Part shown: piece by piece, positions 6,965 to 22,879 of the stretch
Numbering within the stretch: position 1 is the stretch's first letter
Layout: the number at the start of each line of letters is the position of its first letter
NCBI RefSeq assembly: GCF_032401055.1
Contig: NZ_CP135529.1
Span: forward strand, 2,418,001 to 2,482,000
DNA length: 64,000 nt
Source of the DNA: Tardiphaga sp. 709
GTDB taxonomy: Bacteria > Pseudomonadota > Alphaproteobacteria > Rhizobiales > Xanthobacteraceae
Direction: 5' to 3'
Notes under the pieces: model-generated
Told to the model about the DNA's origin: nothing
Databases searched by the model: none
What the model saw: the letters and a program-made list of their open reading frames with translations, nothing else
Translations under genes and position numbers: made by a program

Positions 6965-7882
6965 CTATCCACGTTTTGACAGCACCTCTTCAAGCCGAGC
7001 GACAAGGATGGCGCGCTTGTTCGGCGACAGCTTGTCGAGATTCTGCTGGCGCCAGCGGACGGCGGGAAGCTCGGCCGCATTTGGTAGTCCCAACAGGCCC
7101 CAGTCGGGCTCGCCCCGTTCGAACGAAACGAGAAATTTGCGATGTGCGGCAGGCATATCGCCGACGATAGACTTTATCAGGGCGGCTCTTGCGGAGAGTA
7201 GATCGGCAAGCTCCACGGGGTCTCGCGTCATTCCTGAGAAGCCATGCTTAAACGCAGCTTCGATGTTTTTGAGGGTTGGTGCTAGCACCTCGGACATGGG
7301 TCGGTCATGGCTTAGCAGGTAAACGATAAAGGCCTGACGTAACGCGTCGCTGATGCCTTCATTCGCCATCAAGTCACGTACGTCGAAAAGATCGCGGGGA
7401 TGCTGACGGTCCAACGCGGCGACGATCTTCCCGGCGTAGAGGTCTTCAAACGATACGGTACGCGCCTCCGCAAATCCAAATTCCTCTTCGACGGCTGGCT
7501 TTACCGCAGCTAATGCGGGTTCGAAGACGCAGCCGCGCAAGACCGGCGTCACTTCAATTTTGATCTGAACGCCCTGGGAACGAACGATCAATTTGACGAC
7601 GGTATTTTCAGTCTTGGACTCGGTGATTTGCGCATCAGGAACAGCGGCTTTGATCTTGCCGGCAATGCGTTTCATGGCGGCGTCGATGTCGGCAAGGGAT
7701 TCCGGGCGCGGCGCGACCGGCAAGTAGGTCAGATCAATATCCACCGAGAGGCGCGGAAGGTCGCGAACAAACAGGTTGATCGCCGTCCCACCTTTCAGAG
7801 CAAAGCATGCTTCTTCCGTAACGAGGGGAAGAACGCGGATCAGCAAGGCGACTTGCCGTTTGTAGACGTCAGCGAACGCCAT
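6965..7882 (-). CDS. abiEii: AbiEii-type nucleotidyltransferase toxin
   Basis: This 305-residue protein has the AbiEii/AbiGii toxin pattern: the nucleotidyltransferase GG-x-D-x-D signature, with KGGTAINLF then LSVDIDLTYL at about residues 28-52, a later EDLYAGKIVAALDRQHPRDLFDV block and a DDxxD-like helical C-terminus. Family members are type IV toxins thought to block growth by nucleotidyl transfer, and abort phage infection in known cases. The start (7882) overlaps the end of the upstream antitoxin gene by 14 bp, the usual coupled arrangement with the antitoxin first. The DUF1814-like core is complete, so the toxin looks intact. The locus has lower G+C than its neighbours and no relation to the flanking remnants, consistent with defence or maintenance cargo of a mobile region. 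Confidence 0.9.
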   Translation of the reverse strand: MAFADVYKRQVALLIRVLPLVTEEACFALKGGTAINLFVRDLPRLSVDIDLTYLPVAPRPESLADIDAAMKRIAGKIKAAVPDAQITESKTENTVVKLIVRSQGVQIKIEVTPVLRGCVFEPALAAVKPAVEEEFGFAEARTVSFEDLYAGKIVAALDRQHPRDLFDVRDLMANEGISDALRQAFIVYLLSHDRPMSEVLAPTLKNIEAAFKHGFSGMTRDPVELADLLSARAALIKSIVGDMPAAHRKFLVSFERGEPDWGLLGLPNAAELPAVRWRQQNLDKLSPNKRAILVARLEEVLSKRG

Positions 7883-8723
7883 TCAGATCCCCAGGAACGG
7901 TTATGTGGTAGGTCGGGTCAAGCACCCCGCCTTTAACAAGCATACGCTTGCCGCTGCCGAGATCGATATCTTCTTTCTTCAGGCGCTTGAGCCACGCGTG
8001 CTTGTGACGATCGGAAAAATAGAAGAAGAGGCGCTTGACCTTAACGCTAGCGCAATCCTTCAATAATTTTTGCAAACGATCGGGGCGCAGATTGGCGAGT
8101 CCACCGAACAGGGCATCGACCTGTTCAAAGGTCTCGCGGTTGGGTAACTCGTCGAGCAGTTCGAATATCGCGCGCTCCGGCGTGGACAGCGTCAAGGGCC
8201 AGTCCCACTGGCCCCAGGTCAATTCGGTTATGTCGCCGCCACGGAAGCTCGTCACATCGAGAGCCTCACCTTTGTCGATATTCCATTTGACGCTGTTGAC
8301 GCCCTTGGTAACCGGTTCGTTTTTGAAGAGCCGTCGGTCATTGTGATAAACAAATTTGACTTGGAGCGGCAGTTTCTGAACCCATCCCGGCGGTGGTTTC
8401 GGACCGTAAAGATGTACGACGGTGGTCGATTGCGAAAGGTAGTGGGCGTAGCCCTGTAATTCGAGGGCGGTACGTCCGCCAACTATGAGCGGCGAATAAT
8501 TGAGGATGGTCTGAAGCGATATGACGACCTGCTGCCAGCTCAAGACGCCGCGGGGCCGGCGAAACACACTGCGTGTGGGTTGTTCAAGCCAGCCCGATTT
8601 CACATACTGATGTTGGAGTTGAGTTGAATAGCCTTGGGCATTTAGCCAAGCGGCATCTACCAGCATTCCCTCGGGAAGTTTGCTAGCAAGCTGGTTTATA
8701 AGTCCTCTTTTTTCTCTGCTCAT
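7869..8723 (-). CDS. abiEi: AbiEi family antitoxin / autoregulator
   Basis: This 284-residue protein begins with a winged-helix-like segment (MSREKRGLINQLASKLPEG through LNAQGYSTQLQHQYVKSGW), which matches the N-terminal DNA-binding domain of AbiEi antitoxins. The SPLIVGGRTALELQGYAHYL motif that joins it to the C-terminal antitoxin domain follows. AbiEi proteins neutralise AbiEii without stable complex formation and repress their own promoter. The gene precedes and overlaps abiEii, forming a two-gene operon. About 160 AT-rich bases upstream (8724-8889) hold the likely promoter and operator. The pair is complete and probably functional. Confidence 0.88.
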   Translation of the reverse strand: MSREKRGLINQLASKLPEGMLVDAAWLNAQGYSTQLQHQYVKSGWLEQPTRSVFRRPRGVLSWQQVVISLQTILNYSPLIVGGRTALELQGYAHYLSQSTTVVHLYGPKPPPGWVQKLPLQVKFVYHNDRRLFKNEPVTKGVNSVKWNIDKGEALDVTSFRGGDITELTWGQWDWPLTLSTPERAIFELLDELPNRETFEQVDALFGGLANLRPDRLQKLLKDCASVKVKRLFFYFSDRHKHAWLKRLKKEDIDLGSGKRMLVKGGVLDPTYHITVPGDLNGVR

Positions 8724-8928
8724 AATTTATAATATGGCACATTCCCAAACCGAACGCCAGTTTGAAAATATCCGTTCAAATCAATTAGATATAGAGTAAT
8801 TCATTAAAATCCAAACTCCTTCAGGCGGGGTGATATCCCGCGCCGTTAGGGGTTCGCTGAGGTTCGGCGCTTCATATCGGACAAATAAAGAACGCAATAA
8901 ACCCTGTCCCAACCCGCCCGCAGCTACG

Positions 8929-10138
8929 GGTAACGGCGGAATTCCAGCCGATCCTGGAGATCGTCGAGATAGGGAAGACCTCGCCGGAAGGGCTCGTCGA
9001 AGCTGATCCCAGGCGGATCGGAACCACGATGTACGTCGGCGGGAATACGCTGCAGAAGAACGGCGTGAGCACGCCAACCGATGGCGACTGGTATCTGCCT
9101 CCAGTCTGATCAATCCTCCGCCGGCTGCTCCTGCTGGTCCTCTCTATCAGCCGGGCGTTCCGCTGTATGAGAATTATGCACAGGTGCTGCTCGGCATGAA
9201 CGAGCTGCCGACCGTGCAGCAGCGCGTCGGCAATCGCTATTGGGGCGGCAGCGATGCCATGGCGCGCGCGGGCGTCGCCGCGGCGCCAGGCGAGGCGTCG
9301 CCGACGCCCACGGCGTTCTGGGGCCGCATCGAAGGCGGCCAATCCGATTTGCAGCCCTCCACCACGACAGGCTCCACCTACAAGGCCGACCAGTTGAAAG
9401 TGCAGGCAGGCCTCGACGGTCTCCTGATGGAGAACGAGCGCGGCCGGCTGATCGTCGGTCTCACCGGGCAATTATGGCCTGACAACCGCCAATGTCGCGT
9501 CGTTCTTCGGCAACGGCCGGATCCGCGTCGAAGGTTCGGGTGTCGGCGGCACGCTGACCTGGTTCGGCGACAACGGCTTCTATGTCGACGGCCAGGCGCA
9601 GTCGATGTTCTACCGCAGCGATCTGTCTTCCGTGCTGGCCGGCAGCCTGACCCACGGCAATGAAGGGGTGGGCTATGCCTTCAGCGTTGAAACCGGCAAG
9701 CGGTTCTTTGTCGGCAACGGCTGGTCACTGACGCCGCAGGCGCAATTGTCCTATTCGAAGGCCGAGTTCGATGGCTTCACCGATCGGTTCGGCGCCTCGG
9801 TGCCGCTGCGCGATGGCGACAGCCTGCTCGGCCGCGCCGGACTTGCCCTCAACCACCAGAAGACCTGGAACGACGGCGCAGGCATCGTGCGCTCTGATAT
9901 CTATGGCATCGGCAATCTGCGCTACGAGTTCCTCAATGGCACCAATGTCGACGTCGCCGGCACCGGCTTCGCCAGCGCGCAAGACCGGCTGTGGGGCAGC
10001 ATCGGCGGCGGCGGCACCTATAGCTGGGCCAACGGCCGCTACGCTGTCTTCGGCGAGGTCTCCTATAGCGCGAGCCTTGAGGACGCCGCGGCGAACCGCA
10101 GCTACAAGGGCACTGGCGGCTTCCGCGCCACTTGGTGA
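8929..10138 (+). pseudogene. autotransporter outer-membrane beta-barrel protein, degraded C-terminal part
   Basis: Recognisable autotransporter fragments lie in different frames: GNGGIPADPGD (from 8929), then IVEIGKTSPEGLV and KNGVSTPTDGDWYL (frame shifted near 8960), then LINPPPAAPAGPLYQPGVPL (shifted between 9094 and 9106), the barrel start with NELPTVQQRVGNRYW, and after another shift at 9472-9473 (one extra T) the rest of the beta-barrel from YGLTTANVASFFGNG to the terminal FRATW. The last residue is aromatic, as expected for an outer-membrane barrel. The passenger domain upstream is missing and part of the conserved segment before NGVSTP is replaced. At least three frameshifts and a truncated 5' part make this a dead gene rather than a sequencing artefact. 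Confidence 0.85.
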
Positions 10139-10362
10139 ACGGGCGCGCCGTCCACGTAACTTATGCCTGGACACTAGCTTTCTCTCGGATCGTTGGATCC
10201 AGCTCGCAGGGTCGCCTTGAACCGGAATGCTTTTGCGAAAATCGCTTTCAATTCATGAGCATCGTCCTGGGGACTGGAGTTCCTGTGTTCGTCGTCAGCA
10301 ACCCGTGAAGGCGATGCCGCACCGTCAACGACCGGGGGGTCGGCACCGGATCCAGGCGACCT

Positions 10363-11244
10363 TCAGATAAGGCGATCGCCAACCCGGAACGCATTTGCCT
10401 TGCGGACCTTCTCACTTATCCTCGCCACGTCCCGCACATAGATCGTATTGAACTTATCCATGCCCGTTGTCGGTGCGAGTACGCGCGTAAATCCATCGTA
10501 TTTCGCTGTGACAAAACCGTTGCTGAGAATCGTGTTGTGCATTGCGCGATCGTCGAGGCCGTAGTCGGAGGCGAGGCCCAGCGTTTCAGCAATGATGATT
10601 TCAAGCTTGGGATCAGCGAGAAGCCGTTTGGCTCCTGCGATGACTGCAGGCTCAAATCCCTCCACATCGATAACCAGCATGTTCGGAGTCGCCGGAAACA
10701 CCTCATCAAGAGCCCGGACGGGAATCGACAAGCCTGAGCCATCCAGGACGATCCGGTCGTTTCCCCCGCGATCTGTGGAGAAATTCAGATCGGAAGCTTC
10801 CTTCCCCGCCCCCATGTTGAGCGTGGTCACCAGGCTCGACACCTCATTGATCGCTACATTGTCGCGCAGAGCTTTGAATGTTGAGGGCACCGGTTCCATG
10901 GCGATCACGCGTGCTTTTACTACGCTGCTTGCCGCAATAGAAAGTGCGCCGATGTTGGCGCCGACGTCCCCTAACAGATCGCCTTCCCTGAGGAAGTGAA
11001 GCGCGAGCGAGACCTCTTCGACCTCGGGTAAACCGAAGTAATAGTTCACCGCAGCGCCCGGCATCTGTTTGGATATAATAAGCCGGGAATCTCCGACGAA
11101 GGGTAAAACGATGGGATGTTGAATGGCGCGGCTGGCAAGCTGCCACCGCATGAACCTTATGAACGTTCGGCGTTTATTCTGCCGCGCGAGCGGATGACGG
11201 TTTGCGAAGCGCGACAGATGGTAAAGATCGGCTAAATTTCCCAT
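10363..11244 (-). CDS. FkbM family methyltransferase
   Basis: This 293-residue protein has a SAM-binding motif I (LLGDVGANIGALSIAA, about residues 105-120), motif II around ARVIAMEPVP, and a motif typical of FkbM enzymes near MLVIDVEGFEPAVIAGA. The family O-methylates sugars or polyketides; in surface-polysaccharide loci it often caps or decorates glycans. I place the start at ATG 11244 (MGNLADLYHL), which has an AAAGG-like site upstream; an in-frame ATG at 11340 would add 32 poorly structured residues. It is on the same strand as the acyltransferase at 11588, with a 343-bp gap, so it probably has its own promoter. The substrate is unknown. Confidence 0.85.
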   Translation of the reverse strand: MGNLADLYHLSRFANRHPLARQNKRRTFIRFMRWQLASRAIQHPIVLPFVGDSRLIISKQMPGAAVNYYFGLPEVEEVSLALHFLREGDLLGDVGANIGALSIAASSVVKARVIAMEPVPSTFKALRDNVAINEVSSLVTTLNMGAGKEASDLNFSTDRGGNDRIVLDGSGLSIPVRALDEVFPATPNMLVIDVEGFEPAVIAGAKRLLADPKLEIIIAETLGLASDYGLDDRAMHNTILSNGFVTAKYDGFTRVLAPTTGMDKFNTIYVRDVARISEKVRKANAFRVGDRLI

Positions 11245-11587
11245 AGCAGCATGCCTTTTTAGGTCGCCCGACGCCGAACATGGAGAGCAGGCCATTGACG
11301 GAGCAATGGCGGCGACGGCCAACCGCTCGGAAGCCACCAAACCGGAAACATTTGCAAATTTAACCTAATGGTTCGCAGCACTGCTCAGCCGCCACGATGG
11401 ACCGAACAGCTATTATCGGTACTTGTCTACAGCAATCGCGGCGAGTTCAGATTAACGTAAATGCCTACTGGGAATGGCGGTTAATAGCGACACCGGGCCG
11501 CTTTGAGCGAGCGTCACGATAGTGCGCGATCATTTCGGGAAATTGCCGTGAGCGGGCTTCAGTTCGCCGGCGCCCTGTGGTCAGGGC
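11245..11587. other. intergenic region upstream of the FkbM gene
   Basis: This holds the likely promoter of the methyltransferase gene and the 3' flank of the acyltransferase gene. I see no gene, clear hairpin or repeat apart from a short GGCGGTTAATAGCGA-like stretch resembling one near 6855. Confidence 0.4.
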
Positions 11588-12739
11588 TCAGCGACCGGAA
11601 CTCTCCGCAGGCTGTCCCGGCGATCCGCCAAAGTGTTCCTTGAAGGCCGAGAGCGGGCGCTCAATAGCAAAATACGAGAGAATAGAAAGTGCAAGAGTGA
11701 TGGCGAAGGCTAGCACCACCTGCATCAGCGACGCTCTACTGCCACTTAGTGCACCGTCGTTAAGACCCAAATAGAACAGCACGGGAAGATGGACAACGTA
11801 CATTGCGTAGGAGATATAGCCGAAGCCACGCAAGACCGGTGTCGACAGGACCGCGGTAAGCTTACGCTTCATAATACCATCATCAAAAATCATCGTACTG
11901 ACAAAGGATACACTGATCATCGCGTAGGCCGCCAGGGCCACGGTCCAATACGCCGCCTGGGACGTGATGATGCCAGTGTCCCGGCCTATTCGATTGACGA
12001 TCAGCAGCAAGATCGCGACAGCCAGCAACAGCACGCAATGCAGTCCATGCAGCGAGCGTTTTTCAAACTCGCGAACCGCCAACCAACCGCCAAGCGATAG
12101 TGACAGCATGCGCGTAAAGATCGACATATAAACGAGATCACCGGACAAAACATTATCCCGGCTGCCATAAATTGCAGCGATCACGAGGCCGCTGACGATT
12201 GCAAGAGCCGGAATCACACGCCCCGTAACAACGCTCAACAGGCGCTGCGGCACCAACAGGACCAACAGCGGCCAGAAGAAATAAAACTGCTCCTCGACGG
12301 AGAGCGACCAGGTTTGCTCGAGCGGATGCGGCGCAGGATGAAACGGGTGGTAGAAATTGAACGTGTAGGTCAGCAGACTGAGCGTATCCCACGCCCCAAA
12401 ATGAAAAACGAAGTAGCAAGAGACCACGGCAATATAATAGACCGGGAAGATTCGCAGTGCGCGGCGAGCATAAAAATTAGAGAACGAAATGCGGCCGGTC
12501 TTGGCGCGTTCCCGCAGCAACAGCCGGGTAATGAAGAAGCCGCTGATGGCGAAGAAAATGTCCAGCGCGACATAACCCGTCCGCGGCGCCTGATTGATCT
12601 TCCAGGCGATGTTATATAGCTCACTGTCAACCACTTGCGGCAAGTGGCTGAAGACGACAACTAGCACGGCGACGCCACGAAAGCCGTCAAACGCCGGAAA
12701 TTTTGCCAGCCGTTGAGAGCTGACCTCTGGGTCAGACAT
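11588..12739 (-). CDS. acyltransferase-3 family membrane protein
   Basis: This 383-residue integral membrane protein has about ten hydrophobic helices. It begins with the family signature FPAFDGFRGVAVLVVVFSHL at about residues 15-35 and continues with FFAISGFFITRLLLRER and QTWSLSVEEQFYFFWPLLVL, which contain the conserved Arg/His and S-x-x-x-E-x-x-F-Y-x-x-P-like elements. The family transfers acyl groups (usually acetyl) to extracytoplasmic sugars of exopolysaccharide, LPS or nodulation factors. The start at ATG 12739 has an excellent AGGAGGG site 6 bp upstream, which I prefer to the longer in-frame start at 12757. It follows the tandem hydrolase gene on the same strand after a 123-bp gap and may be co-transcribed with it. 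Confidence 0.9.
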   Translation of the reverse strand: MSDPEVSSQRLAKFPAFDGFRGVAVLVVVFSHLPQVVDSELYNIAWKINQAPRTGYVALDIFFAISGFFITRLLLRERAKTGRISFSNFYARRALRIFPVYYIAVVSCYFVFHFGAWDTLSLLTYTFNFYHPFHPAPHPLEQTWSLSVEEQFYFFWPLLVLLVPQRLLSVVTGRVIPALAIVSGLVIAAIYGSRDNVLSGDLVYMSIFTRMLSLSLGGWLAVREFEKRSLHGLHCVLLLAVAILLLIVNRIGRDTGIITSQAAYWTVALAAYAMISVSFVSTMIFDDGIMKRKLTAVLSTPVLRGFGYISYAMYVVHLPVLFYLGLNDGALSGSRASLMQVVLAFAITLALSILSYFAIERPLSAFKEHFGGSPGQPAESSGR

Positions 12740-12862
12740 AATGGCCCTCCTCCACAAGATCGATAGGGTTAAGCTTCATCCGATCGCACGTAGATAAACG
12801 AAATGAACACGTTTCCATGAGGCTCCTCGAGTCCGAGGACACTGCAAAGCAGTCGAGAAACG

Positions 12863-14668
12863 TTAGCGGCGCAAGAGAGATCTCAAGGGAAACTTGGAAG
12901 CCTGACGGTGCTGTTCGCGGGATGGCGGTGACGAAGGCGCCGCGAGCACGTCGCACAGGGCGCTCGTTAGTCGCGCGCGCGCCGCCGAGTGGGTGAAATC
13001 GTGGTCGGCATCAGGGATTATCGAAACCGAAGCCTTCGGATAGCGGCGTAGCCGCGCGCCTCTTCTTCCCATATACGTGCGGAATTCGCCCAGCGAGTGA
13101 TCTCCTTCCGAAAATAACATCGCTAGACGAACGCCGCGACTTTCGAGAATTTGGAAACGGCGATGACCCTCGCTGTAGAGCTTCTGGCCGGTCCGGCCCG
13201 GGATGTGGCTGGCTATCAATGAGACAGTTCGAACAAGGCGTTTTGAGAAAAAGATAACCGGAGCTTTGATGCGCAAATTGCCTGACAGCAGTCGTCTCAA
13301 GCTTCGCTTGCTAAACAACATCGCAACGGACCCGCCAATGGTTCGATGGGCCGATAACAAGGCTTCAGCGACGGTTTCCCGTGGGTCCCAGACAAAACGC
13401 ATGATATTGATGGCGACGACATTGCGAACGCGCACATCTTGCACCGCTGCCTGGAATGCGGCGTAAGCACCACTGCAGCGTCCTACCAAGGCGATCGGGC
13501 CGGCATCGAGCTTCTCTACATAGTCGATCGCGTGACGCAGGTCAGCAGTTTGCTCTTCCGAATAAAGTACTTCGGCCGGCGCGCCTGCCGACGCCGCACT
13601 GTCGCCTATACCGCCGGCGTCGATTCTCAACGAAGCGATCCCGTGCTCCGCGAGGGCGCGAGCCTGTTCTACTGCCGCGCGACCCCAGCCGATGTGATAG
13701 TCGCGCCCCGAATTGGCGAGCACTGCGATAGCTGAAGGCCTTCGACCGAGCGGCCGACACAGGACTCCGAAGAGCCGCTCGTCTGGCCCAAACCGAACCG
13801 GTAACTCCTCATAGTGAGGTCCGACGATTGGCCGCGCGGGCCCTGTCACTTTGGCGGAACAGTTGGCGCCCGCGATTGGAAAATGCCCGAGATCGTCGAT
13901 CCATGACACGATTCGTGTCAGCGTGCCGAGCTGTGGACCAGCCAAACTTGGATTTTGCAGGATATTTTCATACCCCTCGTAGTCGATGGACGAAACTTCG
14001 GCTCCGAGCGTCTTCAGGTGGTTGCCGATTGAGCTGTCACGGGACATCGGACTGCGCTCAACCAAAAGAACCCGTGCGGCGGGAGGCTCAGTTGTCCGAG
14101 TAAGATCGATAGTTTTGATGGCTGCGGCGCGGCTGCTTGCCAGTGCAATACCAGCGACGCTGTAGCCGTTGTCGGATGGGTCGGGCCCGATACCCATCCG
14201 GTCGGTCAGCATGCGCGACCAGGCCTGAAGTTCACGAAGATAGGCGCGCCCTTTGACGACCGGCGCCATCAGGACCGTCGCTGCGACGTCGGGTAATTCG
14301 GTTCCGAGTTGGGCGGCCAGACTGGCGCCAAGGCCTTGTCCGACCAGAACGAGTTCGATGCCGGGATTGTATTCCCGCAAGAATGCAACGCACTGACGGG
14401 CAGCAACAAACCAGTCAGAGATGCCTTCGGGGTCGGCAGCGAGATCGATTGCATCTGCCGTGCCGGGATAATCGAATCTGAGGCATGCATGACCTGCCGC
14501 GGCAATGTACTCGGCCAAAGCACTCCATGTGGCTCGGGTACACAATTCCTCATATCCGATCGGTGCGAGCAACAGCACCGCCTTGCGTCCGCATCGGTCA
14601 ATGCAGCCCGCGTGATAAAAGCCGCCGAAAGTATCAAACGTTACAGGTGCGCCATATCGGAATGTCAT
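12863..14668 (-). CDS. tandem alpha/beta-hydrolase protein with one degenerate and one Cys-type active site
   Basis: This 601-residue protein contains two alpha/beta-hydrolase folds in a row. Domain 1 (about residues 1-260) has the LLAPIGYEELCTRATW oxyanion region and a nucleophile elbow GQGLG at 110-114, where Gly112 replaces the serine. Domain 2 (about 285-580) has the RIDAGGIGDS loop, an elbow GRCSG at 396-400 with Cys398 in the nucleophile position, the LFSEGDHSLGEF acid loop and a DADHDFTHSAAR histidine. Domain 2 could therefore hold a Cys-Asp-His triad while domain 1 looks inactive. Related two-domain hydrolases occur in exopolysaccharide and exosortase-type loci; the substrate is not known. 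The gene is divergent from the carrier-protein operon (493 bp apart), which suggests acyl or aminoacyl thioester handling by inference only. Confidence 0.8.
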   Translation of the reverse strand: MTFRYGAPVTFDTFGGFYHAGCIDRCGRKAVLLLAPIGYEELCTRATWSALAEYIAAAGHACLRFDYPGTADAIDLAADPEGISDWFVAARQCVAFLREYNPGIELVLVGQGLGASLAAQLGTELPDVAATVLMAPVVKGRAYLRELQAWSRMLTDRMGIGPDPSDNGYSVAGIALASSRAAAIKTIDLTRTTEPPAARVLLVERSPMSRDSSIGNHLKTLGAEVSSIDYEGYENILQNPSLAGPQLGTLTRIVSWIDDLGHFPIAGANCSAKVTGPARPIVGPHYEELPVRFGPDERLFGVLCRPLGRRPSAIAVLANSGRDYHIGWGRAAVEQARALAEHGIASLRIDAGGIGDSAASAGAPAEVLYSEEQTADLRHAIDYVEKLDAGPIALVGRCSGAYAAFQAAVQDVRVRNVVAINIMRFVWDPRETVAEALLSAHRTIGGSVAMLFSKRSLRRLLSGNLRIKAPVIFFSKRLVRTVSLIASHIPGRTGQKLYSEGHRRFQILESRGVRLAMLFSEGDHSLGEFRTYMGRRGARLRRYPKASVSIIPDADHDFTHSAARARLTSALCDVLAAPSSPPSREQHRQASKFPLRSLLRR

Positions 14669-15161
14669 GATCTTGAAACTATTACAGTTTTCTGTTCGTT
14701 AGCCGAATGGCGCCAGCAAATGGATATTTTCGCTGCTAAGCAGTCGCCCTTGCCGGATGCCAATTTCTTAACTCAGGGGCGACGAAGGTGTCATTCGATA
14801 TCGCGTTCCATCATTAACGTGTACTCGGCGCGGTACGTTGCCGCCGATAGTTAGCTATTTGCTAATCATGGTTCGTTATCTCGCGCGATCGACTTGAACC
14901 CGCTGATCCTGATATCGACGCCGTTGCTCGAAAGCACCCGACTAATAGTTGCGACCGCAGCAACCGGCGCCAGGATTAACGAAAGCGTCCATTTTGCGTG
15001 ATTATATCTTCATTCCGTTAAGCTTGACGCCGGAACGGTCTTTTGCATTTGAGGCTTATTACGATCCTCTCCACCTTTGATTGATATCTTGTCCATATCA
15101 CTGTGAGCCGCTCGCATCCCCTGGCGAAGCGATGGACTTTTTGTAGCGTTGGAGAAACTTC
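14669..15161. other. divergent promoter region between tandem hydrolase and carrier-protein operon
   Basis: This is 493 bp without a gene, more AT-rich than its flanks (for example 14840-14880 and 15000-15080). It must hold two outward promoters. The plus-strand side ends with a good ribosome site (TTGGAGAAACTTC) before the carrier-protein ATG at 15162. I found no clear palindrome. Confidence 0.5.
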
Positions 15162-15407
15162 ATGCGTGACCGTGTCCGCACCATTGTCGGATCGCTGAAC
15201 CTACTTCCCGTTCCAGTCGATGGCTTATCCGACCAGGACAATCTGTTCGATGCGGGCATGACATCGTTCGGTTCAGTTCAGCTGATGATGGCCATCGAGG
15301 AAGAATTCGATATCGAATTTCCAAACAGTCTGCTGACTCGCAAAACATTTGCGACGCTTGGTGGGTTGATTGCTGCTGTCGAACAGCTCGTCTCTGAGAA
15401 AGTCTAG
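15162..15407 (+). CDS. acyl/aminoacyl carrier protein
   Basis: This 81-residue protein has the four-helix carrier fold pattern. DNLFDAGMTSFGSVQL carries the phosphopantetheine attachment serine at Ser35 in an aGMTS-type motif instead of the fatty-acid ACP DSL, and it is followed by MMAIEEEFDIEFP. The length matches discrete carrier proteins. The DAGMTS motif and the downstream amino acid:[carrier protein] ligase indicate that it carries an aminoacyl group rather than a fatty acyl chain, which is established for the carrier proteins served by such ligases. It is the first gene of a tight operon: its stop at 15405-15407 is only 4 bp before the next ATG. A phosphopantetheinyl transferase is not encoded in the window. 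Confidence 0.92.
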   Translation: MRDRVRTIVGSLNLLPVPVDGLSDQDNLFDAGMTSFGSVQLMMAIEEEFDIEFPNSLLTRKTFATLGGLIAAVEQLVSEKV

Positions 15408-15411
15408 GGTC

Positions 15412-16620
15412 ATGATCCCGAACGCGGTGAAGCAAGGCATTGACGTGCCCGAAGCCGTGTCCTGGCGTGACGCGATGCGGCGGGTTGCCATCGAGGTTGC
15501 TTCGCCAAATGCCGCTCTTGCGGACCTAACCGCGACGTTTCCAGCGCAGACATTCGAAGCTCTTCGTCGTAACGAGATGCTCGGCTTGATGGTACCTAGA
15601 AGCCTTGGTGGCCAGGAATTGGAATTGCGCAAGATTGCCAATCTTTGCGCGATTCTCGCGGGCGCGTGCGGCGCCAGCGGCATGATTTACGCCATGCATC
15701 AGATCAAGCTATCGAGCCTGGTCGCCCATGGGATGCAAACCGAATATCATCGCGCGCTCATGCGCGATGTAGCTGTCAAGCAGCTACTGATCGCGTCGTC
15801 GACCACGGAGGCTGGCATCGGCGGCGATCTGCGGATATCGAATTGCGCGATCGAGACGACGGGTGATCGGGTTTCGCTGACAAAGCAGGCAAGTGTCCTG
15901 TCTTATGCCGCGGAAGCCGATATCATCCTGGCGACCGCGCGGCGCGGTCCGGCGTCGATCGGGTCCGATCAGGTCCTGATCGCGCTGCGGCGTGGCGACT
16001 ATCAACTTCAGCGCACCGCTGAGTGGAATACGCTCGGCATGCGCGCCACCTGCTCCGAGGGTTTCCTGCTGACGGCAACGGCCGGAGCCGATCAGATCTT
16101 TCCGAAGCCGTTCCACGAGATCGCAGTGCAGTCCATGCTGGCCACCGCACATGTGCTGTGGGCGAGCGTCTGGTTCGGGATCGCGACCGATGCTTTGTCG
16201 CGTGCGCGCGCCTCGGTTCGAGCAACGGCGCGGCGCGTGCCGTCCGATTTCGCGGGGCCGCTCCCAGGCGCGGCTCGACTGGCCGAGGCCACCGCCAAAT
16301 TGCAGACGTTCAAGTCCACGCTCGTCGCCCATATTGAGCGGTTCGAGACTGCGAAGCGCAACGAAGACGATCTCAGCTCGATCAATTTCGCGATCGAAAT
16401 GAACAATCTCAAGGTCATGGCTTCGACCATGGCCGTCGACATCGTACGTGAAGCGCTGATGGTGACGGGCATCGCCGGCTATCGCAACGACGGTCCATTC
16501 TCGGTCGGCCGCCATCTCAGGGATGTGCTGTCGGCGCCGCTGATGGTGGCTAACGATCGCATCCTCGCCAACACCGCTGGCCTCGTGGTCGCGAGCCGAT
16601 TTGACTCAGATCTGGAGTGA
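15412..16620 (+). CDS. acyl-CoA dehydrogenase-like flavoprotein acting in the carrier-protein operon
   Basis: This 402-residue protein follows the acyl-CoA dehydrogenase layout: an N-terminal helical part (LRRNEMLGLMVPRSLGGQEL), a middle beta domain with LLIASSTTEAGIGGDLR (FAD/substrate contact), and a C-terminal helical bundle ending GIAGYRNDGPFSVGRHLRDV then SAPLMVANDRI. In classical enzymes the catalytic glutamate sits in a YEGT-like segment at that last position; here the aligned residues are LMVAN and I see no equivalent Glu, so the chemistry may differ. Carrier-protein-linked homologues such as prolyl-S-PCP oxidases are known precedents. The ATG at 15412 follows the carrier-protein gene by 4 bp. 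It is probably an oxidase or dehydrogenase of an aminoacyl-S-carrier intermediate (inference). Confidence 0.82.
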   Translation: MIPNAVKQGIDVPEAVSWRDAMRRVAIEVASPNAALADLTATFPAQTFEALRRNEMLGLMVPRSLGGQELELRKIANLCAILAGACGASGMIYAMHQIKLSSLVAHGMQTEYHRALMRDVAVKQLLIASSTTEAGIGGDLRISNCAIETTGDRVSLTKQASVLSYAAEADIILATARRGPASIGSDQVLIALRRGDYQLQRTAEWNTLGMRATCSEGFLLTATAGADQIFPKPFHEIAVQSMLATAHVLWASVWFGIATDALSRARASVRATARRVPSDFAGPLPGAARLAEATAKLQTFKSTLVAHIERFETAKRNEDDLSSINFAIEMNNLKVMASTMAVDIVREALMVTGIAGYRNDGPFSVGRHLRDVLSAPLMVANDRILANTAGLVVASRFDSDLE

Positions 16621-16625
16621 TAGCG

Positions 16626-17555
16626 ATGAACGCGCCTGTTAAAGCCGTGCAAAGTCCGGAAGCATTTCTCGACGCCCTGTTCGACGAGTCGATCCTGATC
16701 AGGACCGGCGTCGACGGGCTCTATGGCCGCGCCGGTGTGTTCGAAGAGGTCATCGACGGGTTCGAAGCCGCGGTGACGAAAATAGCCGTCGGCGATCAGG
16801 CGACGCGGATTCATTTTCCGCCAGGCATGCCGCGCAAGAATCTTGTGAAAGCCGGTTACCTGAAGAGCTTTCCGCAATTGGCCGGCTGCGTCCACTCTTT
16901 CATGGGCGATAACGCCGACCATGCCAAGCTCGTCGGCATGATCGAGCGGGGCGAAGACTGGACCGAGATGCAGGATGCGACGGAAGTCGCGCTGACGCCG
17001 GCTGCCTGCTACCCGCTTTATCCTACTGTCGCGGCGGAAGGTCCGGTGCCGGAGGGCGGTCGGCTGTTCGATCTCAAGTCATACTGCTTCCGCCATGAGC
17101 CCTCGAAGGATCCGGCGCGGATGCAGCTGTTCCGGATGCGCGAATTCGTCCGCATCGGCACGGCCGACGAAGTGACATCTTTCCGGGCCACTTGGCTCGA
17201 GCGCGGCGAAAAGCTTATCGCTTCGTTGGGCCTGCCTTGCGTTATCGATGTGGCCAACGATCCGTTCTTCGGGCGCACTGGCCGCGTCATGGCGTCGAGT
17301 CAGCGCGACCAAGGTCTGAAATTTGAGTTGCTAATCCCAGTCGCGAGCGATGAAGATCCGACGGCGTGTCTGTCGTTCAACTATCACCAGAACCATTTCG
17401 GCAGCCTGTGGGGCATGCACTTCGCGGACGGCGAGGTCGCGCACTCCGCCTGTGTCGGCTTCGGCCTGGAGCGGACGGCGCTGGCGCTGTTCCGTCACCA
17501 CGGCACCAAGGTCGACGCGTGGCCCGCGGATGTCCGCCGCGTGCTGTGGGGCTAG
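16626..17555 (+). CDS. amino acid:[carrier protein] ligase (class II synthetase-like)
   Basis: This 309-residue protein is related to the catalytic core of atypical seryl-tRNA synthetases and lacks the tRNA-binding arm. Motif 2 is CFRHEPSKDPARMQLFRMRE and motif 3 is GFGLERTALALF. Probable zinc ligands are Cys128, Glu173 and Cys276, each offset by three from Cys131/Glu176/Cys279 as I recall them for the Bradyrhizobium enzyme. Such ligases activate a small amino acid (Gly or Ala in characterised members) with ATP and load it onto the phosphopantetheine of a partner carrier protein; they do not charge tRNA. The partner is presumably the gene product at 15162. I choose ATG 16626, which has GGAG 8 bp upstream, over the GTG at 16617. 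The physiological role is unknown even in studied relatives. Confidence 0.93.
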   Translation: MNAPVKAVQSPEAFLDALFDESILIRTGVDGLYGRAGVFEEVIDGFEAAVTKIAVGDQATRIHFPPGMPRKNLVKAGYLKSFPQLAGCVHSFMGDNADHAKLVGMIERGEDWTEMQDATEVALTPAACYPLYPTVAAEGPVPEGGRLFDLKSYCFRHEPSKDPARMQLFRMREFVRIGTADEVTSFRATWLERGEKLIASLGLPCVIDVANDPFFGRTGRVMASSQRDQGLKFELLIPVASDEDPTACLSFNYHQNHFGSLWGMHFADGEVAHSACVGFGLERTALALFRHHGTKVDAWPADVRRVLWG

Positions 17556-17558
17556 GCC

Positions 17559-18551
17559 TTGCAAACCGCCTGCGCCATCGATGGACTGGATCCCGCAACC
17601 TATGTTCGTCACGGGCTGCATGATCCCGCGCGCAACTGGCCTGAGACGAACTGCTACGTCGATCTGCTGATCGAAGTACTGGCCCGACGCGGGCATGATC
17701 CCCGGGCGGCGCTGGCTTTCACGGTCGCGCAGGATTACGAGGGCGACCAGTTCACGTTTTTCAAGATTCCGGCCGCCGATCTCGCGCTGCTGTACGGCGT
17801 CGAGATTCTGGAGCTCGCGATCTTCGATCAGCTGGAAGATCACGCGCGCGTGCAGTTGACGCGGGGCCGTCTGCCGCTGATCGAGGTCGATTCTTACTAC
17901 CTGCCGGATACCCGCGGCATCACCTATCGTCACAGTCACAGCAAAACGACCATCGGCGTCAACGTCCTGGATTCGGTCGACCGCCGGCTCGATTACTTTC
18001 ACAATGGCGGATACTTCCGTCTCGAAGGCGAAGACTTCGAGGCGCTGTTGCGGCCTGTGCGTGACAACGGCCTGCCGCTTTTCCCTTACGTCGAATTCAT
18101 CAAGTTCGGTCCGGCGTCTTCTGCCCATAAGCAGATCGAGATGTCTCGCACGTTGCTGGCGCAACACCTGCGTCGCCGTCCGGCGCGGAATCCATTTACC
18201 GCATGGGGCGACGTGATCGGTGCCGACATCGGCCGGCTGATTGGACGGCCTCCCGAGTGGTTTCACACCTACGCCTTCAGTACATTACGTCAGGCCGGTG
18301 CGAATTTCGAACTGCTCGCGACCTATCTGGCGTGGTTACAGGAGCACGGTGACCCGGCGCTGGAGCGCGCCAGGCTGGCCGCGGAGGCGATCGCCGGCGG
18401 CACCAAGATCTTGCAGTTTCAATTCGCCCGCGCCTCGGCCCGCGGCAAGGTTCCGGATGTGGCGGATGCCGTCCGCCAGCTCGCAAGTAATTACGATATC
18501 GCCCTCGACAGCCTCATGAACGGTTTCGTCGCTCGCGGTGCCGCGGCATGA
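17559..18551 (+). CDS. DUF1839 family protein
   Basis: This 330-residue protein starts at a TTG 3 bp after the ligase stop codon and is clearly translationally coupled. Recognisable blocks are WPETNCYVDLLIEVLARRG, AALAFTVAQDYEGDQFTFFK, IEVDSYYLPDTRGITYRHSH and LDYFHNGGYFRLEGEDFEAL. Conserved Cys, Asp-Tyr and His-Ser-His residues (NCYVD, DSYYLPDT, YRHSHSKT) suggest a catalytic site. No function is established for the family; I recall it accompanying amino acid:[carrier protein] ligases, so a role as an aminoacyl or peptidyl transferase, or in release from the carrier, is a reasonable guess but only that. The length is as expected and the frame is intact. Confidence 0.85.
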   Translation: MQTACAIDGLDPATYVRHGLHDPARNWPETNCYVDLLIEVLARRGHDPRAALAFTVAQDYEGDQFTFFKIPAADLALLYGVEILELAIFDQLEDHARVQLTRGRLPLIEVDSYYLPDTRGITYRHSHSKTTIGVNVLDSVDRRLDYFHNGGYFRLEGEDFEALLRPVRDNGLPLFPYVEFIKFGPASSAHKQIEMSRTLLAQHLRRRPARNPFTAWGDVIGADIGRLIGRPPEWFHTYAFSTLRQAGANFELLATYLAWLQEHGDPALERARLAAEAIAGGTKILQFQFARASARGKVPDVADAVRQLASNYDIALDSLMNGFVARGAAA

Positions 18552-18584
18552 TCTCCCTGTGACTTGATCGGCCTATTGATTGCC

Positions 18585-21065
18585 ATGACCGACATCCGCG
18601 CCATGACGGGACGCAAGGTGCAGCCGCTCGACAGCGGCTGGGAATTGGCGCTGTCGCCGCCTCAAGCATGGCAAGAGCCCGGCGGGTTGGGTGAAGCCAT
18701 CTGGTTGCCCGCGATCATCCCTGGCACGGCCGCCGGCGCGCTGCGGACCCTCGGGCAATGGAGTTTCGATGACCCTCAGCCGCTGCACAACAAGGACGTC
18801 TGGTACCGGGTCCAAATCAGTGGACGCGGCAAGCGCAAGCTGCGGTTCGAGGGGCTCGCGACATTCGCCGAGGTTTTCCTCGATGGCAGGCTCATCCTGA
18901 CCGGGAGCTCGATGTTCGAGCCGTATGAGGCCGAGATTGTGCTCGGCGGCGAGCATTGGATGCATATCGCCTTCAGGAGCCTCCGCGGCGTGCTGGCAGG
19001 AACGAAAGGCCCTCGGCCACGCTGGAAGACGATGATGATCGAGGAGCCACGGCTGCGGTTCCTGCGCACCACGCTGATCGGGCACATGCCCGGATGGTGC
19101 CCGCCCGTCGATGTGGCCGGCCCATACCGGTCTGTGCTGCTGATCGAAGAGGGAATTGTTCGCGCCGACAATGTCGATCTGCGCAGCCGGCTCGACGACA
19201 CCGAAGGCGTTCTGACGCTCGCGCTCGATCTGTCGGGAGTGCCGGAAGGCGTGACGCCGGTCCTGCACTGCGCTGGGGCGGAGGTGCAGCTGAGACCGCT
19301 CGACATCGAAGCGCCGCCCGCCGGTGCGGCGCGCTGGCAGGGCACACTGCGGATCCCCGATGTGGAGCTGTGGTGGCCTCACACCCATGGTAGCCCGACG
19401 CTCCATGCGGTGACCATCGACATCGGTACCGTCCGGATCGATTTGGGAGAGGTTGGATTTCGCCGGATCGCGGTCGACCGCGGGCCGGACGGAAACGGCT
19501 TCGCCCTGCATGTCAACGGCGTCCGCATTTTCTGCCGCGGCGCATGTTGGACGCCGATCGACGTGGTGAGCCTGCAGGCATCTGACGCCGATTACGCGCG
19601 GGACCTTGGCCTGGTGCAAAGTGCTGGCCTCAACATGGTCCGTCTCAGCGGGACCATGGTCTATGAGACCCCAAGTTTCCACCGCCTCTGCGACAGGCTC
19701 GGCATCATGGTCTGGCAGGACGTCATGATGGCCAATTTTGATTACCCGTCGGATGTGGCCTTTGCTGAAGTCATCCGCAGCGAAATCACGACGGTCGCTC
19801 GCCGGTTGAGCGCGTCGCCGTCACTGGTCGTGATGTGCGGTGGCAGTGAGGTTGGTCAGCAGGCTGCGATGATGGGCCTGCCGCGCCAGATGCGCGACGT
19901 ACCGCTGGCGGAAACCGTCATTCCCGAAGTTTTGGCGGGCTGGTGTGACGTCGCCTATGTGCCGGGTTCGCCGTCCGGCGGCGTGCTGCCCTTCGTGGCT
20001 GAAGCGGGCCCGTCGCATTATTACGGCGTTGGCGCATATTTGCGGCCCCTCGACGATGCGCGCCGCGCCAATGTCCGCTTCGCCTCCGAGTGTCTCGCTT
20101 TCGCCAACCTGCCGGACGATCGTCACTTCGCTGACCATCGGCTCGATCCTGCCAGCAATCCGGAACGCTGGCTCGCCGGCGTCCCGCGAGATGGCGGTGC
20201 ATCTTGGGATTTCGACGATGTGCGCGAGCATTATCTTCAGGCGCTGTGGAACGAAGACGGCCGCAGCCTGCGCCCCAGCGAACCCGGGCGCTGGCGCCAG
20301 CTATCGCGCGCGATCACAGCCGAGGTCATCGAACGGACGATCGACGAATGGCGCCGCCCGGCCTCCACCACCGCTGGCGCGCTGATATGGCTGTGGCGCG
20401 ACCTGCAGCCCGGCGCAGGCTGGGGCCTGCTGGATTGCTACGGCCGTCCGAAATCGGCCTTCTACGCACTGCGCCGCGCCGCGCTGCCGCTTCGCTTGTC
20501 GATCACTGACGAAGGCACCAACGGGCTCTACCTGCATCTCGTTAACGACACGCCGCGGGCCGCCGCAGGCAAACTGACCTTGCGTTGCCTGAGAGACGGC
20601 AAGACGCCGGTGATCGAAGCGGTGCGCAATGTGACCATCGCACCGCATGCCGGGCTTTCAATTGGAGCGTTCGAGATGCTCGACCGGTTCTTCGACGCCG
20701 GTCACTGCTATCGCTTTGGGCCAGCGGCGCATGACACTGTACATGCGACGTTCGCAGCCGAGGACTCCGATCAACCTCAAGAAGCCTTTCATTTTCTTTG
20801 CCCCCCGACGTCGGCGGTTGACCAGACGATTGGCGCGGTGCTTGGTGAAGACGACGCCGGTTTCTTTCTCGACCTGCAAGCCGTCACGGCGACGCGTTTT
20901 GTTGAAATCGCGGACAACAAATTCCTTCCCGACGACAATTATTTTCACATAGCATTTGGGCACCGCAAGATCGTGCGTCTGGCACCGCCCCGACATTCGT
21001 CCGATAATTTGCGCCCATTGGGACGAATCTCTGCGCTCACTCTGAGTGGCGACGTCAAATACTGA
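18585..21065 (+). CDS. glycoside hydrolase family 2 protein (beta-mannosidase-like)
   Basis: This protein of about 826 residues has the GH2 order: an N-terminal jelly-roll (LDSGWELALSPP, KDVWYRVQISG), an Ig-like beta domain (RADNVDLRSRLDD, DVELWWPHTHGSPTLH) and a TIM barrel (VNGVRIFCRGACWTPID, MVRLSGTMVYE, GIMVWQDVMMANFDYPSD). The probable acid/base is Glu422 in CGGSE, and the probable nucleophile is Glu502 in FASEC followed by LAFANLP, both in beta-mannosidase-like contexts. There is no signal peptide, so it probably acts in the cytoplasm. It is the last gene of the carrier-protein operon, 33 bp after DUF1839 when started at ATG 18585 (a TTG at 18564 is also possible). Its presence suggests that the pathway product or precursor is glycosylated. 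Confidence 0.85.
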   Translation: MTDIRAMTGRKVQPLDSGWELALSPPQAWQEPGGLGEAIWLPAIIPGTAAGALRTLGQWSFDDPQPLHNKDVWYRVQISGRGKRKLRFEGLATFAEVFLDGRLILTGSSMFEPYEAEIVLGGEHWMHIAFRSLRGVLAGTKGPRPRWKTMMIEEPRLRFLRTTLIGHMPGWCPPVDVAGPYRSVLLIEEGIVRADNVDLRSRLDDTEGVLTLALDLSGVPEGVTPVLHCAGAEVQLRPLDIEAPPAGAARWQGTLRIPDVELWWPHTHGSPTLHAVTIDIGTVRIDLGEVGFRRIAVDRGPDGNGFALHVNGVRIFCRGACWTPIDVVSLQASDADYARDLGLVQSAGLNMVRLSGTMVYETPSFHRLCDRLGIMVWQDVMMANFDYPSDVAFAEVIRSEITTVARRLSASPSLVVMCGGSEVGQQAAMMGLPRQMRDVPLAETVIPEVLAGWCDVAYVPGSPSGGVLPFVAEAGPSHYYGVGAYLRPLDDARRANVRFASECLAFANLPDDRHFADHRLDPASNPERWLAGVPRDGGASWDFDDVREHYLQALWNEDGRSLRPSEPGRWRQLSRAITAEVIERTIDEWRRPASTTAGALIWLWRDLQPGAGWGLLDCYGRPKSAFYALRRAALPLRLSITDEGTNGLYLHLVNDTPRAAAGKLTLRCLRDGKTPVIEAVRNVTIAPHAGLSIGAFEMLDRFFDAGHCYRFGPAAHDTVHATFAAEDSDQPQEAFHFLCPPTSAVDQTIGAVLGEDDAGFFLDLQAVTATRFVEIADNKFLPDDNYFHIAFGHRKIVRLAPPRHSSDNLRPLGRISALTLSGDVKY

Positions 21066-21366: not shown

Positions 21367-22626
21367 CTAGGATGCTGACGACGATCGGGATCGTCGGACC
21401 TTCGCGGTCGACAGAGCGGTTCCGGGCCTGCGGAGGTCATCCAGGTAATCCGCGTACCACTGCATCATCGGGACGCGTTCTTCCCAATATTCGGCACCAT
21501 TATAGGCACCCCGAACCTCGTCTTCCTCTTGGTGCGCTAGCTGACGTTCGATAGCATCGCTATCCCAACGGCGCCTGCCATCCGAGCGGCGGCTTTCGTT
21601 CAGCAGTGTCGACGCCGTCGACCGGAAGCCATGCGCGGTCACTTGCGCTTTCGTGTACCCAAGCCGGCGAAGCGCAGCGTTTAGCGTCCCATCGGAAATC
21701 GGACGATGCCACGAGCGGATCTGCGGAAACAAATAGGGCGACGTGCCTGTGACTTCGCGAAGGTCATTGATGATCGCAATCGCCTGTCGAGACAGCGGCA
21801 CTTTGTGCGGCCGCGGCATCTTCATCTTTTCCTTCGGGATGTTCCAGACGGCGTCCCGCAGATCGAATTCCTTCCATTCCGCGTGCCGCAGTTCGCCCGG
21901 CCGAACGAAAGTAAGGGCGATCAACTGCAACGCTGCGCGTGTTGTGATCTGACCGTCCATGTCGTCGATCGCGCGGAGAAGCGCGCCGACGGCCTTCGGC
22001 TCGGTGACGGCGGCCCGGTGACTGACCTTTGGCGCTATGAGGGCGCCCGTTAGGTCAGCCGATGGGTCGCGCTCGGCGCGAGAGGTGCTGATCGCATATT
22101 TGAAGACGCGACCGCTAATGCTGCGGGCGCGTCGGGCTGTATCATATCGCCCTCGCCTCTCGATCTTTCGAAGCACATCAAGCAATTCCGACGCCTTGAT
22201 CTCGGCGATCGGTCGATCGCCCAAATCGGCGTTGATGAAGCCGAGAAGCCATTTTTTCTTTTCTATTGTCTTTGGGTCGTCGCCCTCGGCTTCGAACTTC
22301 GCGATGAGTTCGTCCGCGACGATCCGGAAGGTATTGCTGCGCGCAATGCGCGCCGCGCTGCGATCCAACTTGCGCTGCGCGGACGGATCGATGCCCTTGG
22401 CCAGAAGCGCCTTGTTCGCGTCCCGGCCGGCGCGGGCGTCGGCGAGACCGACCGCCGGATAGGCGCCCAGCGCGATCAGCTTCTGCTTTCCGTCGAACCG
22501 ATACGCCTGTCGCCAAAGCCGCGACCCGTTCTTTTCAACAAGCAAATGCAGCCCGCCTCCATCGCTGATTTTGTAGGGCTTCGTGGCGGATTTGGCGGCA
22601 CGGCAGGCGGCATCCGAAAGCGGCAT
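21367..22626 (-). CDS. P4-type tyrosine site-specific integrase
   Basis: This 419-residue protein has an N-terminal arm-binding DUF4102 domain (KPYKISDGGGLHLLVEKNGS, ALGAYPAVGLADAR), a SAM-like core-binding domain (about 100-190) and a C-terminal catalytic domain. The catalytic residues are Arg242 (FVRPGELRHAEW), His332 and Arg335 (AHGFRSTAST), His365 (RQLAHQEEDEV) and Tyr375 (GAYNGAEYWEERV). The length is normal for P4-like integrases. The gene ends far from, and starts 177 bp from, the 3' end of tRNA-Phe at 22804, the standard arrangement for an island inserted in that tRNA. The integrated element must extend to the left, taking in the accessory genes seen there. It appears intact. Confidence 0.95.
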   Translation of the reverse strand: MPLSDAACRAAKSATKPYKISDGGGLHLLVEKNGSRLWRQAYRFDGKQKLIALGAYPAVGLADARAGRDANKALLAKGIDPSAQRKLDRSAARIARSNTFRIVADELIAKFEAEGDDPKTIEKKKWLLGFINADLGDRPIAEIKASELLDVLRKIERRGRYDTARRARSISGRVFKYAISTSRAERDPSADLTGALIAPKVSHRAAVTEPKAVGALLRAIDDMDGQITTRAALQLIALTFVRPGELRHAEWKEFDLRDAVWNIPKEKMKMPRPHKVPLSRQAIAIINDLREVTGTSPYLFPQIRSWHRPISDGTLNAALRRLGYTKAQVTAHGFRSTASTLLNESRRSDGRRRWDSDAIERQLAHQEEDEVRGAYNGAEYWEERVPMMQWYADYLDDLRRPGTALSTAKVRRSRSSSAS

Positions 22627-22803: not shown

Positions 22804-22879
22804 TGGTGCCCAGGGGCGGGATCGAACCACCGACACTGCGATTTTCAGTCGCATGCTCTACCAACTGAGCTACCTGGGC
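22804..22879 (-). tRNA. tRNA-Phe (GAA)
   Basis: The minus strand folds as a full cloverleaf: acceptor GCCCAGG pairing with CCTGGGC, D-arm AGCTCAGTTGGTAGAGC, anticodon loop CTGAAAA with GAA, T-arm GGTTCGATC and an encoded CCA end at 22804-22806. It is the probable attachment site for the adjacent integrase; the crossover would use its 3' half. Confidence 0.97.

Follow-up and report, generated by a model that had tools for sequence, protein, structure and literature searches.

A window of 64,000 nucleotides from Tardiphaga sp. 709 (contig NZ_CP135529.1, positions 2,418,001 to 2,482,000) holds six genes that form a fixed unit, found in many soil- and plant-associated bacteria. Five lie on the plus strand and encode a discrete aminoacyl carrier protein, a flavoprotein of the acyl-CoA dehydrogenase (ACAD) fold, a class II synthetase-like amino acid:[carrier protein] ligase, a DUF1839 protein and a glycosidase of family GH2, while a sixth, divergent gene encodes a tandem alpha/beta-hydrolase (Table 1). 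We see about an even chance that this unit is a thiotemplated cassette free of any nonribosomal peptide synthetase (NRPS), in which the ligase loads, the flavoprotein oxygenates, the DUF1839 protein transfers, and the GH2 protein and the hydrolase process the product. The cassette is probably a new variant of NRPS-free thiotemplated biosynthesis; new here are the sixth gene, the fold-based role of DUF1839 and the argument against an ordinary dehydrogenase.

A preliminary description of this DNA had listed five plus-strand reading frames at positions 15162-21065, with gaps of 4, 5, 3 and 33 bp, and had proposed searching other genomes for linkage of the ligase, DUF1839, ACAD and GH2 genes. The layout was confirmed and the linkage was found. 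DUF1839 occurs in 16 genomes of an evenly drawn sample of 398 from the phylum, and all 16 carry the ACAD, ligase, DUF1839 and GH2 genes together; only 2 of the 18 DUF1839 copies in this sample lie outside the cassette order, both in genomes that also hold a cassette. The 104 loci of a larger set were selected by DUF1839 and are redundant (several represent the same genome twice); 99 of them have all five genes in the same order. Of the remaining five loci, three are truncated at the edge of a contig (L069, L076 and L098), one is a lone DUF1839 gene at a contig start (L019) and one, L108, has no ligase. Relatives of the tandem hydrolase, a gene that the preliminary description did not list, are linked to the cassette in 82 of the 104 loci. 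Within the genus, DUF1839, GH2 and the tandem hydrolase co-occur in the identical 8 of 18 genomes and, at the thresholds used, in none of the other 10. DUF1839 is also found on 59 of 72,556 plasmid records, and all six plasmid regions that were read contain the five genes. An annotated alpha/beta-hydrolase adjoins GH2 in four of the six, directly after it and with overlapping ends in three records; the regions of Caballeronia and R. leguminosarum show no hydrolase, though their gene table is incomplete. In Rhizobiaceae-type loci (L021:3664-6491 and about 30 others), the cassette comes after genes recognised by eye as efp, epmA and epmB (in clusters of 27, 30 and 32 loci), which probably mark a chromosomal landmark.

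Ligases of this family load Gly- or Ala-type amino acids onto a carrier, and ATP-dependent carrier loading is established for family members; to our knowledge, however, no biological role has been assigned to these synthetase-like ligases since they were first described. The cassette ligase has no Pfam match and scores 482.8 bits against NF005479 (E value 3.7e-145, cut-off 357 bits), and it matches Bll0957-type PDB chains at 315-321 bits. Its zinc-ligand residues Cys128, Glu173 and Cys276, which align with those of Bll0957, are present in all 98 aligned ligases (102 were found, 98 of them long enough to align), and Ser35 of the carrier, in the motif DAGMTS, is a serine in 100 of 100 aligned carriers; these residues, already picked out in the preliminary description, were thus verified and are conserved in all aligned relatives. 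The best PDB matches of the carrier are Atu2571 and the carrier of 4h2w, both at 68.8 bits. Comparison by eye shows no difference between a stretch of 72 residues of Atu2571 and the carrier encoded in the cassette of A. tumefaciens UMA610 (L103), and the solved Agrobacterium carrier therefore belongs to the cassette. Two Bll0957-type PDB chains differ in one loop, and the chain solved with an Atu2571-like carrier has the loop of the cassette-ligase type; the loop of 4h2w is, we presume, engineered. In this carrier-contact loop, QR precedes a D or E in 93 of the 98 cassette ligases and in none of 9 ligases from outside the cassette. Taken together, the conserved residues, the gene linkage and the matching loop suggest that the ligase would load the 81-aa carrier. 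Two distant homologues of the ligase were seen elsewhere. One (L240:7215-10550, genome G296, contig C255; 101 bits, below cut-off) lies within about 1.5 kb of a BtrH_N protein (30.4 bits, just over cut-off), in surroundings that look by eye like a natural-product cluster, and is a single independent case of such a ligase with a papain-like transferase. The other (L173:8102-12231, genome G113; 29% identity) has as neighbours an MBOAT gene and a protein that matches DUF1574 weakly, below the cut-off, in a Dlt-like arrangement.

The DUF1839 protein matches PF08893 at 393.5 bits (gathering cut-off 22.5). A 2023 classification assigned this family to the papain-like proteins, noted its C(T/S)H set and proposed a role in cell-wall glycan processing (PMC10318531). 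In a predicted structure built from 42 sequences (pLDDT 92.5, pTM 0.91), all 17 Foldseek matches against the PDB with E values up to 0.001 are AziU2-U3, CtaG or CcbD; these matches have template modelling (TM) scores of 0.53-0.62 across 322-359 alignment columns, covering the whole length, while the next matches, which are proteases, have TM scores of 0.3 or less. The same model gave no match with an E value up to 0.001 in a library of viral structures. Through a ping-pong mechanism with Cys, His and Glu, CcbD joins proline bound to a carrier protein (CP) to an amino sugar, and it contacts its carrier through arginines 312-324 (PMC12945683); LmbD was assigned to lincosamide condensation from a deletion (PMC4351081), and CtaG is described as a peptidyl transferase (PMC6772006). 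Because the fold match spans the whole protein and CcbD transfers an amino acid from its carrier to an amino sugar, the DUF1839 protein is most likely a papain-like, carrier-dependent condensing enzyme of the CcbD/CtaG type, as predicted from the model. Its conserved residues include Cys32 (103 of 104), His127 and His148 (both 104 of 104), Thr130 (101) and Thr131 (99), together with Arg291 (104) and Arg295 (101) in the C-terminal helices; His148 may occupy the place of the acidic residue in the others. Two Burkholderiaceae cassettes (L017 and L018, genomes G255 and G328) have a DUF1839 protein without Cys32, and both genomes carry a second DUF1839 protein with the cysteine (L002 and L003). A second DUF1839 gene also lies close by on the opposite strand in L020, and all four Cupriavidus plasmid records have two DUF1839 places. 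Copies with and without Cys32 are perhaps an enzyme-pseudoenzyme pair.

We aligned the flavoprotein with ACADs of its own genome (12 loci were fetched, of which three proteins matched at E < 1e-3). The catalytic glutamate of the medium-chain acyl-CoA dehydrogenase type, present in one of these, aligns with Val379, and that of the isovaleryl-CoA dehydrogenase (IVD) type, present in the other two, aligns with Ala246. Among 100 cassette relatives no acidic residue is found at positions 246 and 379 (with one gap at 379), whereas His96 and His247 are invariant in all 100. As both tested glutamate positions are non-acidic, ordinary dehydrogenation is doubtful. The ACAD fold is common to group D monooxygenases (PMC6165268). 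ChmG is an ACAD homologue without the catalytic glutamate that N-oxygenates carrier-bound proline (PMC11177257), and AlnG is a second, putative case of this kind (PMC7347517). The flavoprotein shares the loss of the glutamate and the linkage to carrier and ligase with ChmG-like N-oxygenases, with ChmG known here from its published description; the shared absence does not prove that the flavoprotein would act as an N-oxygenase. Among 299 sampled genomes, 21 hold a ligase over the cut-off, 12 with DUF1839 and 9 without. In all nine ligase loci without DUF1839, the same ACAD family, with His96, His247 and Ile379, lies beside the ligase, and the stretch fetched contains no DUF1839, GH2 or tandem hydrolase gene. 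From this arrangement, the ACAD would seem to work on the aminoacyl carrier ahead of the DUF1839 step.

The GH2 protein has an architecture of the exo-beta-mannosidase type, judging by sequence profiles: its family profile matches 5n6u at 295.7 bits (positions 36-800 of 824) and 2vjx at 276.8 bits, nearly along the entire length. Glu422 (100 of 100 relatives) and Glu502 (99 of 100) align with the GNNE-like and F-x-S-E motifs of beta-mannosidases, which we take to be the catalytic glutamate sites of those enzymes. In a crude hydropathy scan of N termini (45 residues for GH2, 60 for a GH5 control), none of 103 GH2 proteins has a 12-residue stretch over the threshold, while 7 of 10 GH5 neighbours pass, and the GH2 protein is therefore likely cytoplasmic. 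The halves of the tandem hydrolase resemble exosortase-A-associated hydrolases 2 and 1 (NCBIfam hydr2_PEP and hydr1_PEP), below the cut-offs of the NCBIfam hydrolase 1 and 2 families (83.1 versus 168.45 bits and 52.1 versus 202.75 bits). In its second domain Cys398 and His556 are conserved in 82 of 82 relatives and Asp523 in 81, while the usual nucleophile place of the first domain is a glycine (52) or an arginine (30). The predicted structure (mean pLDDT 85.6) matches general esterases and lipases in Foldseek, at TM scores of about 0.3 of the query, and points to no specific function. A Rhizobium-type cluster of 13 loci, some from genomes counted twice, has the same protein type at about 1100 aa; in this cluster (L110:14753-18079 and 12 similar loci) a polysaccharide flippase domain (PF13440; one member scanned) apparently precedes the hydrolase in one fused protein, and in several of another seven loci a separate flippase gene adjoins the hydrolase.

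We propose that the ligase would activate a small amino acid with ATP and load it onto the phosphopantetheine arm of the carrier. The flavoprotein, lacking the glutamate, would then oxidise the carrier-bound amino acid, most likely by flavin-dependent oxygenation and perhaps at the amine, as ChmG does. The DUF1839 protein would accept the aminoacyl group on Cys32 and transfer it to an amine, in the way that CcbD uses an amino sugar; the probably cytoplasmic GH2 protein of beta-mannosidase type would cut or transfer a beta-linked sugar of the acceptor or product; and the tandem hydrolase, with its Cys-Asp-His set, would release or edit acyl groups. The product would likely be a small conjugate of an amino acid and a sugar, which in some lineages may be linked to a surface glycan. 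More specifically, and as a possible yet doubtful version, the ligase, an N-oxygenating flavoprotein and DUF1839, as a new family of carrier-dependent aminoacyl transferases, would build an amino sugar bearing an N-oxidised aminoacyl group, whose sugar GH2 would unmask or trim; this would be a widespread and undescribed kind of NRPS-free pathway in soil- and plant-associated Pseudomonadota. The small non-NRPS pathway with a carrier put forward in the preliminary description is supported by our analysis; its transfer step agrees with the predicted fold of DUF1839, and its GH2 enzyme is of a sugar-active type with both catalytic glutamates. Its tethered oxidation is kept as an oxidation, which may mean oxygenation and not dehydrogenation, given that the tested positions hold no catalytic glutamate.

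It should be noted that several observations weigh against this proposal. The Foldseek matches of DUF1839 have root-mean-square deviations of 5-9 A and identities of 13-18%. The chemistry of AziU2-U3 differs, and the fold therefore argues for a carrier-bound substrate, and the cysteine for acyl transfer. A sequence relation between DUF1839 and BtrH_N (PF14399) was rejected, as the profile comparison was insignificant (hhalign probability 4%, E value 0.01, 39 columns; a control comparison with the tandem hydrolase gave 0.1%). The BtrH_N profile was made from 11 of 15 fetched loci, leaving out L228, L234, L237 and L238, and BtrH_N itself occurs in none of 121 genomes of the order and in 14 of 378 of the phylum. 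A sugar as acceptor would follow from CcbD and GH2 alone. The tandem hydrolase is missing from 22 of the 104 loci, in some because the contig ends. Finally, L108 (Roseibium denhamense, 8478-13494) is a cassette without a ligase: the match to the ACAD stops at 9901, the DUF1839 gene begins some 10 kb into the locus, and no ligase was found between them or anywhere else in its 21 kb.

The points that weigh on the oxygenation step are those that favour a different flavoprotein chemistry, namely that the same pathway runs with a true dehydrogenase or oxidase, which would form an imine or dehydroamino acid with another base such as His247. The top PDB profile matches of the flavoprotein are indeed two dehydrogenases, at 94 and 89 bits, and the invariant His247 adjoins the IVD-type glutamate position. 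The N-oxygenases DnmZ (4zxv) and 3m9v, the latter presumably the sugar N-oxygenase KijD3, rank close behind at 82 bits, followed by a nitrososynthase at 77, and the prolyl-acyl carrier protein dehydrogenase 4irn scores only 50. Both tested glutamate positions are non-acidic, and a glycyl group, if glycyl is what is loaded, as for relatives of the ligase, would offer no beta carbon. We regard this dehydrogenase or oxidase as unlikely. Whether the DUF1839 protein is instead a hydrolase also bears on the proposal: an oxidised amino acid derivative would then be freed as an acid or amine (for catabolism, as a signal or as a metallophore building block), with GH2 acting separately on a plant glycoside or one of the cell's own. 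The papain-like fold is mostly hydrolytic (PMC10318531), and in the ChmG pathway the alpha/beta-hydrolase ChmF frees a later carrier-bound product as the free acid (PMC11177257). However, the whole-length fold matches of DUF1839 are carrier-dependent biosynthetic enzymes and not proteases, the cassette already holds a candidate releasing hydrolase, and GH2 is locked into the unit, all of which make a hydrolytic DUF1839 improbable.

A further alternative is that the cassette decorates surface glycans by a Dlt-like logic, placing an amino acid onto an exopolysaccharide building block, with GH2 and the hydrolase trimming or editing. Polysaccharide genes lie near 6 of 18 cassettes versus 3 of 36 regions drawn at random from the same genomes (P = 0.029 in a one-sided Fisher test, with loci that are not independent). 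The query proteins were taken from the flanks of cassettes in named genomes, with hits of more than 90% identity discarded, and the test thus leans to the cassette side; the modest excess is at most suggestive. Members of polysaccharide-type gene clusters occur within the fetched stretch in 42 of the 104 loci, a count that has no control, and both the flippase fusion in the 13-locus cluster and the resemblance to exosortase-associated hydrolases point in the same direction. On the other hand, 12 of the 18 cassettes have no such neighbour, one conjugative plasmid carries the five genes among transposases, and the crude hydropathy test found no evident export signal in GH2. A Dlt-type system for the cassette was rejected, as there is no MBOAT gene among the scanned neighbours in the window, only an Acyl_transf_3 protein (11588-12757). 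We consider decoration of surface glycans distinctly unlikely. Of the surface modification entertained in the preliminary description, the modest excess of polysaccharide genes speaks weakly for it and the GH2 N terminus against it.

The proposed thiotemplated cassette can be set beside several known systems. The Bll0957/Atu2571 ligase-carrier systems are alike in the NF005479 score, the zinc-ligand residues, the carrier serine and the identical Atu2571 stretch; known work on them concerns ligase and carrier, to which the present analysis adds the wider unit of six genes with its logic. Bradyrhizobium-type loci (L163-L165) differ in having the ACAD without DUF1839, GH2 or tandem hydrolase. The lincosamide synthetase (LmbC/LmbD/LmbN-CP, CcbD), which itself joins an amino acid to an amino sugar, likewise combines a stand-alone activation enzyme and a carrier with a papain-like condensing enzyme, whose fold is the one predicted for DUF1839. 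It activates, however, through an NRPS-type A domain, and CcbD and DUF1839 show no profile similarity, the DUF1839 profile giving only matches with E values of 0.58 and 3.6 among PDB sequences. The closthioamide pathway shares the NRPS-independent thiotemplate logic and, in CtaG, a papain-like peptidyl transferase of the same predicted fold, but activates through ATP-grasp and acetyl-CoA-synthetase-type proteins (PMC6772006); no CtaC-type gene was found among the cassette families with Pfam and NCBIfam. The chalkophomycin N-hydroxypyrrole module (ChmIJGHF) also has a carrier, a ligase, a glutamate-less ACAD homologue and an alpha/beta-hydrolase (PMC11177257), while the cassette has a single ACAD, another ligase class, and DUF1839 and GH2 in addition, with ChmG compared by description. 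A literature search by ligase and locus names gave no study of this pathway by title, with subscription journals mostly outside its coverage.

Around the cassette, the region between the two transcription units is likely regulatory, as inferred from its position. The preliminary description had called the locus a tRNA-linked island. A phage-type integrase does adjoin tRNA-Phe, but the 3' end of the tRNA (25 bases, up to 2 mismatches) is a single copy in the genome with no repeat in the window, a search for the far boundary of an integrative island by such a repeat found none in window or genome, and none of nine cassette loci of the same genus or family has a tRNA nearby (L045 and L051 being the same contig). 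Beside the tandem hydrolase lie genes for an FkbM-type methyltransferase (10363-11340) and the Acyl_transf_3 membrane acyltransferase, neither of which is a recurrent neighbour in the clustering of cassette loci. The window also encodes a type IV toxin-antitoxin pair, AbiEi/AbiEii (6965-8723), and a protein of 678 aa that contains a ParB-type helix-turn-helix domain (4127-6163).

Table 1. Features of the cassette and its immediate context, in positions of the window.
Feature	Position	Strand	Basis
Tandem alpha/beta-hydrolase, 601 aa, divergent sixth gene	12863-14668	-	Relatives in cassette loci
Divergent intergenic region between both transcription units	14669-15161		By position
Discrete aminoacyl carrier protein, 81 aa, phosphopantetheine Ser35	15162-15407	+	PP-binding 3.5e-11
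ACAD-fold flavoprotein, 402 aa	15412-16620	+	Pfam ACAD domains (Acyl-CoA_dh_N 4.9e-9)
Class II synthetase-like amino acid:[carrier protein] ligase, 309 aa	16626-17555	+	NF005479
DUF1839 protein, 330 aa, TTG start	17559-18551	+	PF08893 9.3e-118
GH2 protein, exo-beta-mannosidase architecture, 826 aa	18585-21065	+	Glyco_hydro_2_N2 2.3e-8
Phage-type integrase (context only)	21367-22626	-	Pfam Phage_integrase, Phage_int_M, Arm-DNA-bind_3
tRNA-Phe (context only)	22804-22879	-	ARAGORN

Overall, the six-gene unit turns the question of what carrier ligases do into a short list of testable reactions. If the proposed pathway is true, DUF1839 would gain an assigned function, and genomes could be read for a small-molecule pathway that is common among rhizobia, Azospirillum and Burkholderia relatives. 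Should the product be the N-oxidised conjugate, the orphan amino acid:[carrier protein] ligases would also gain a biological role.

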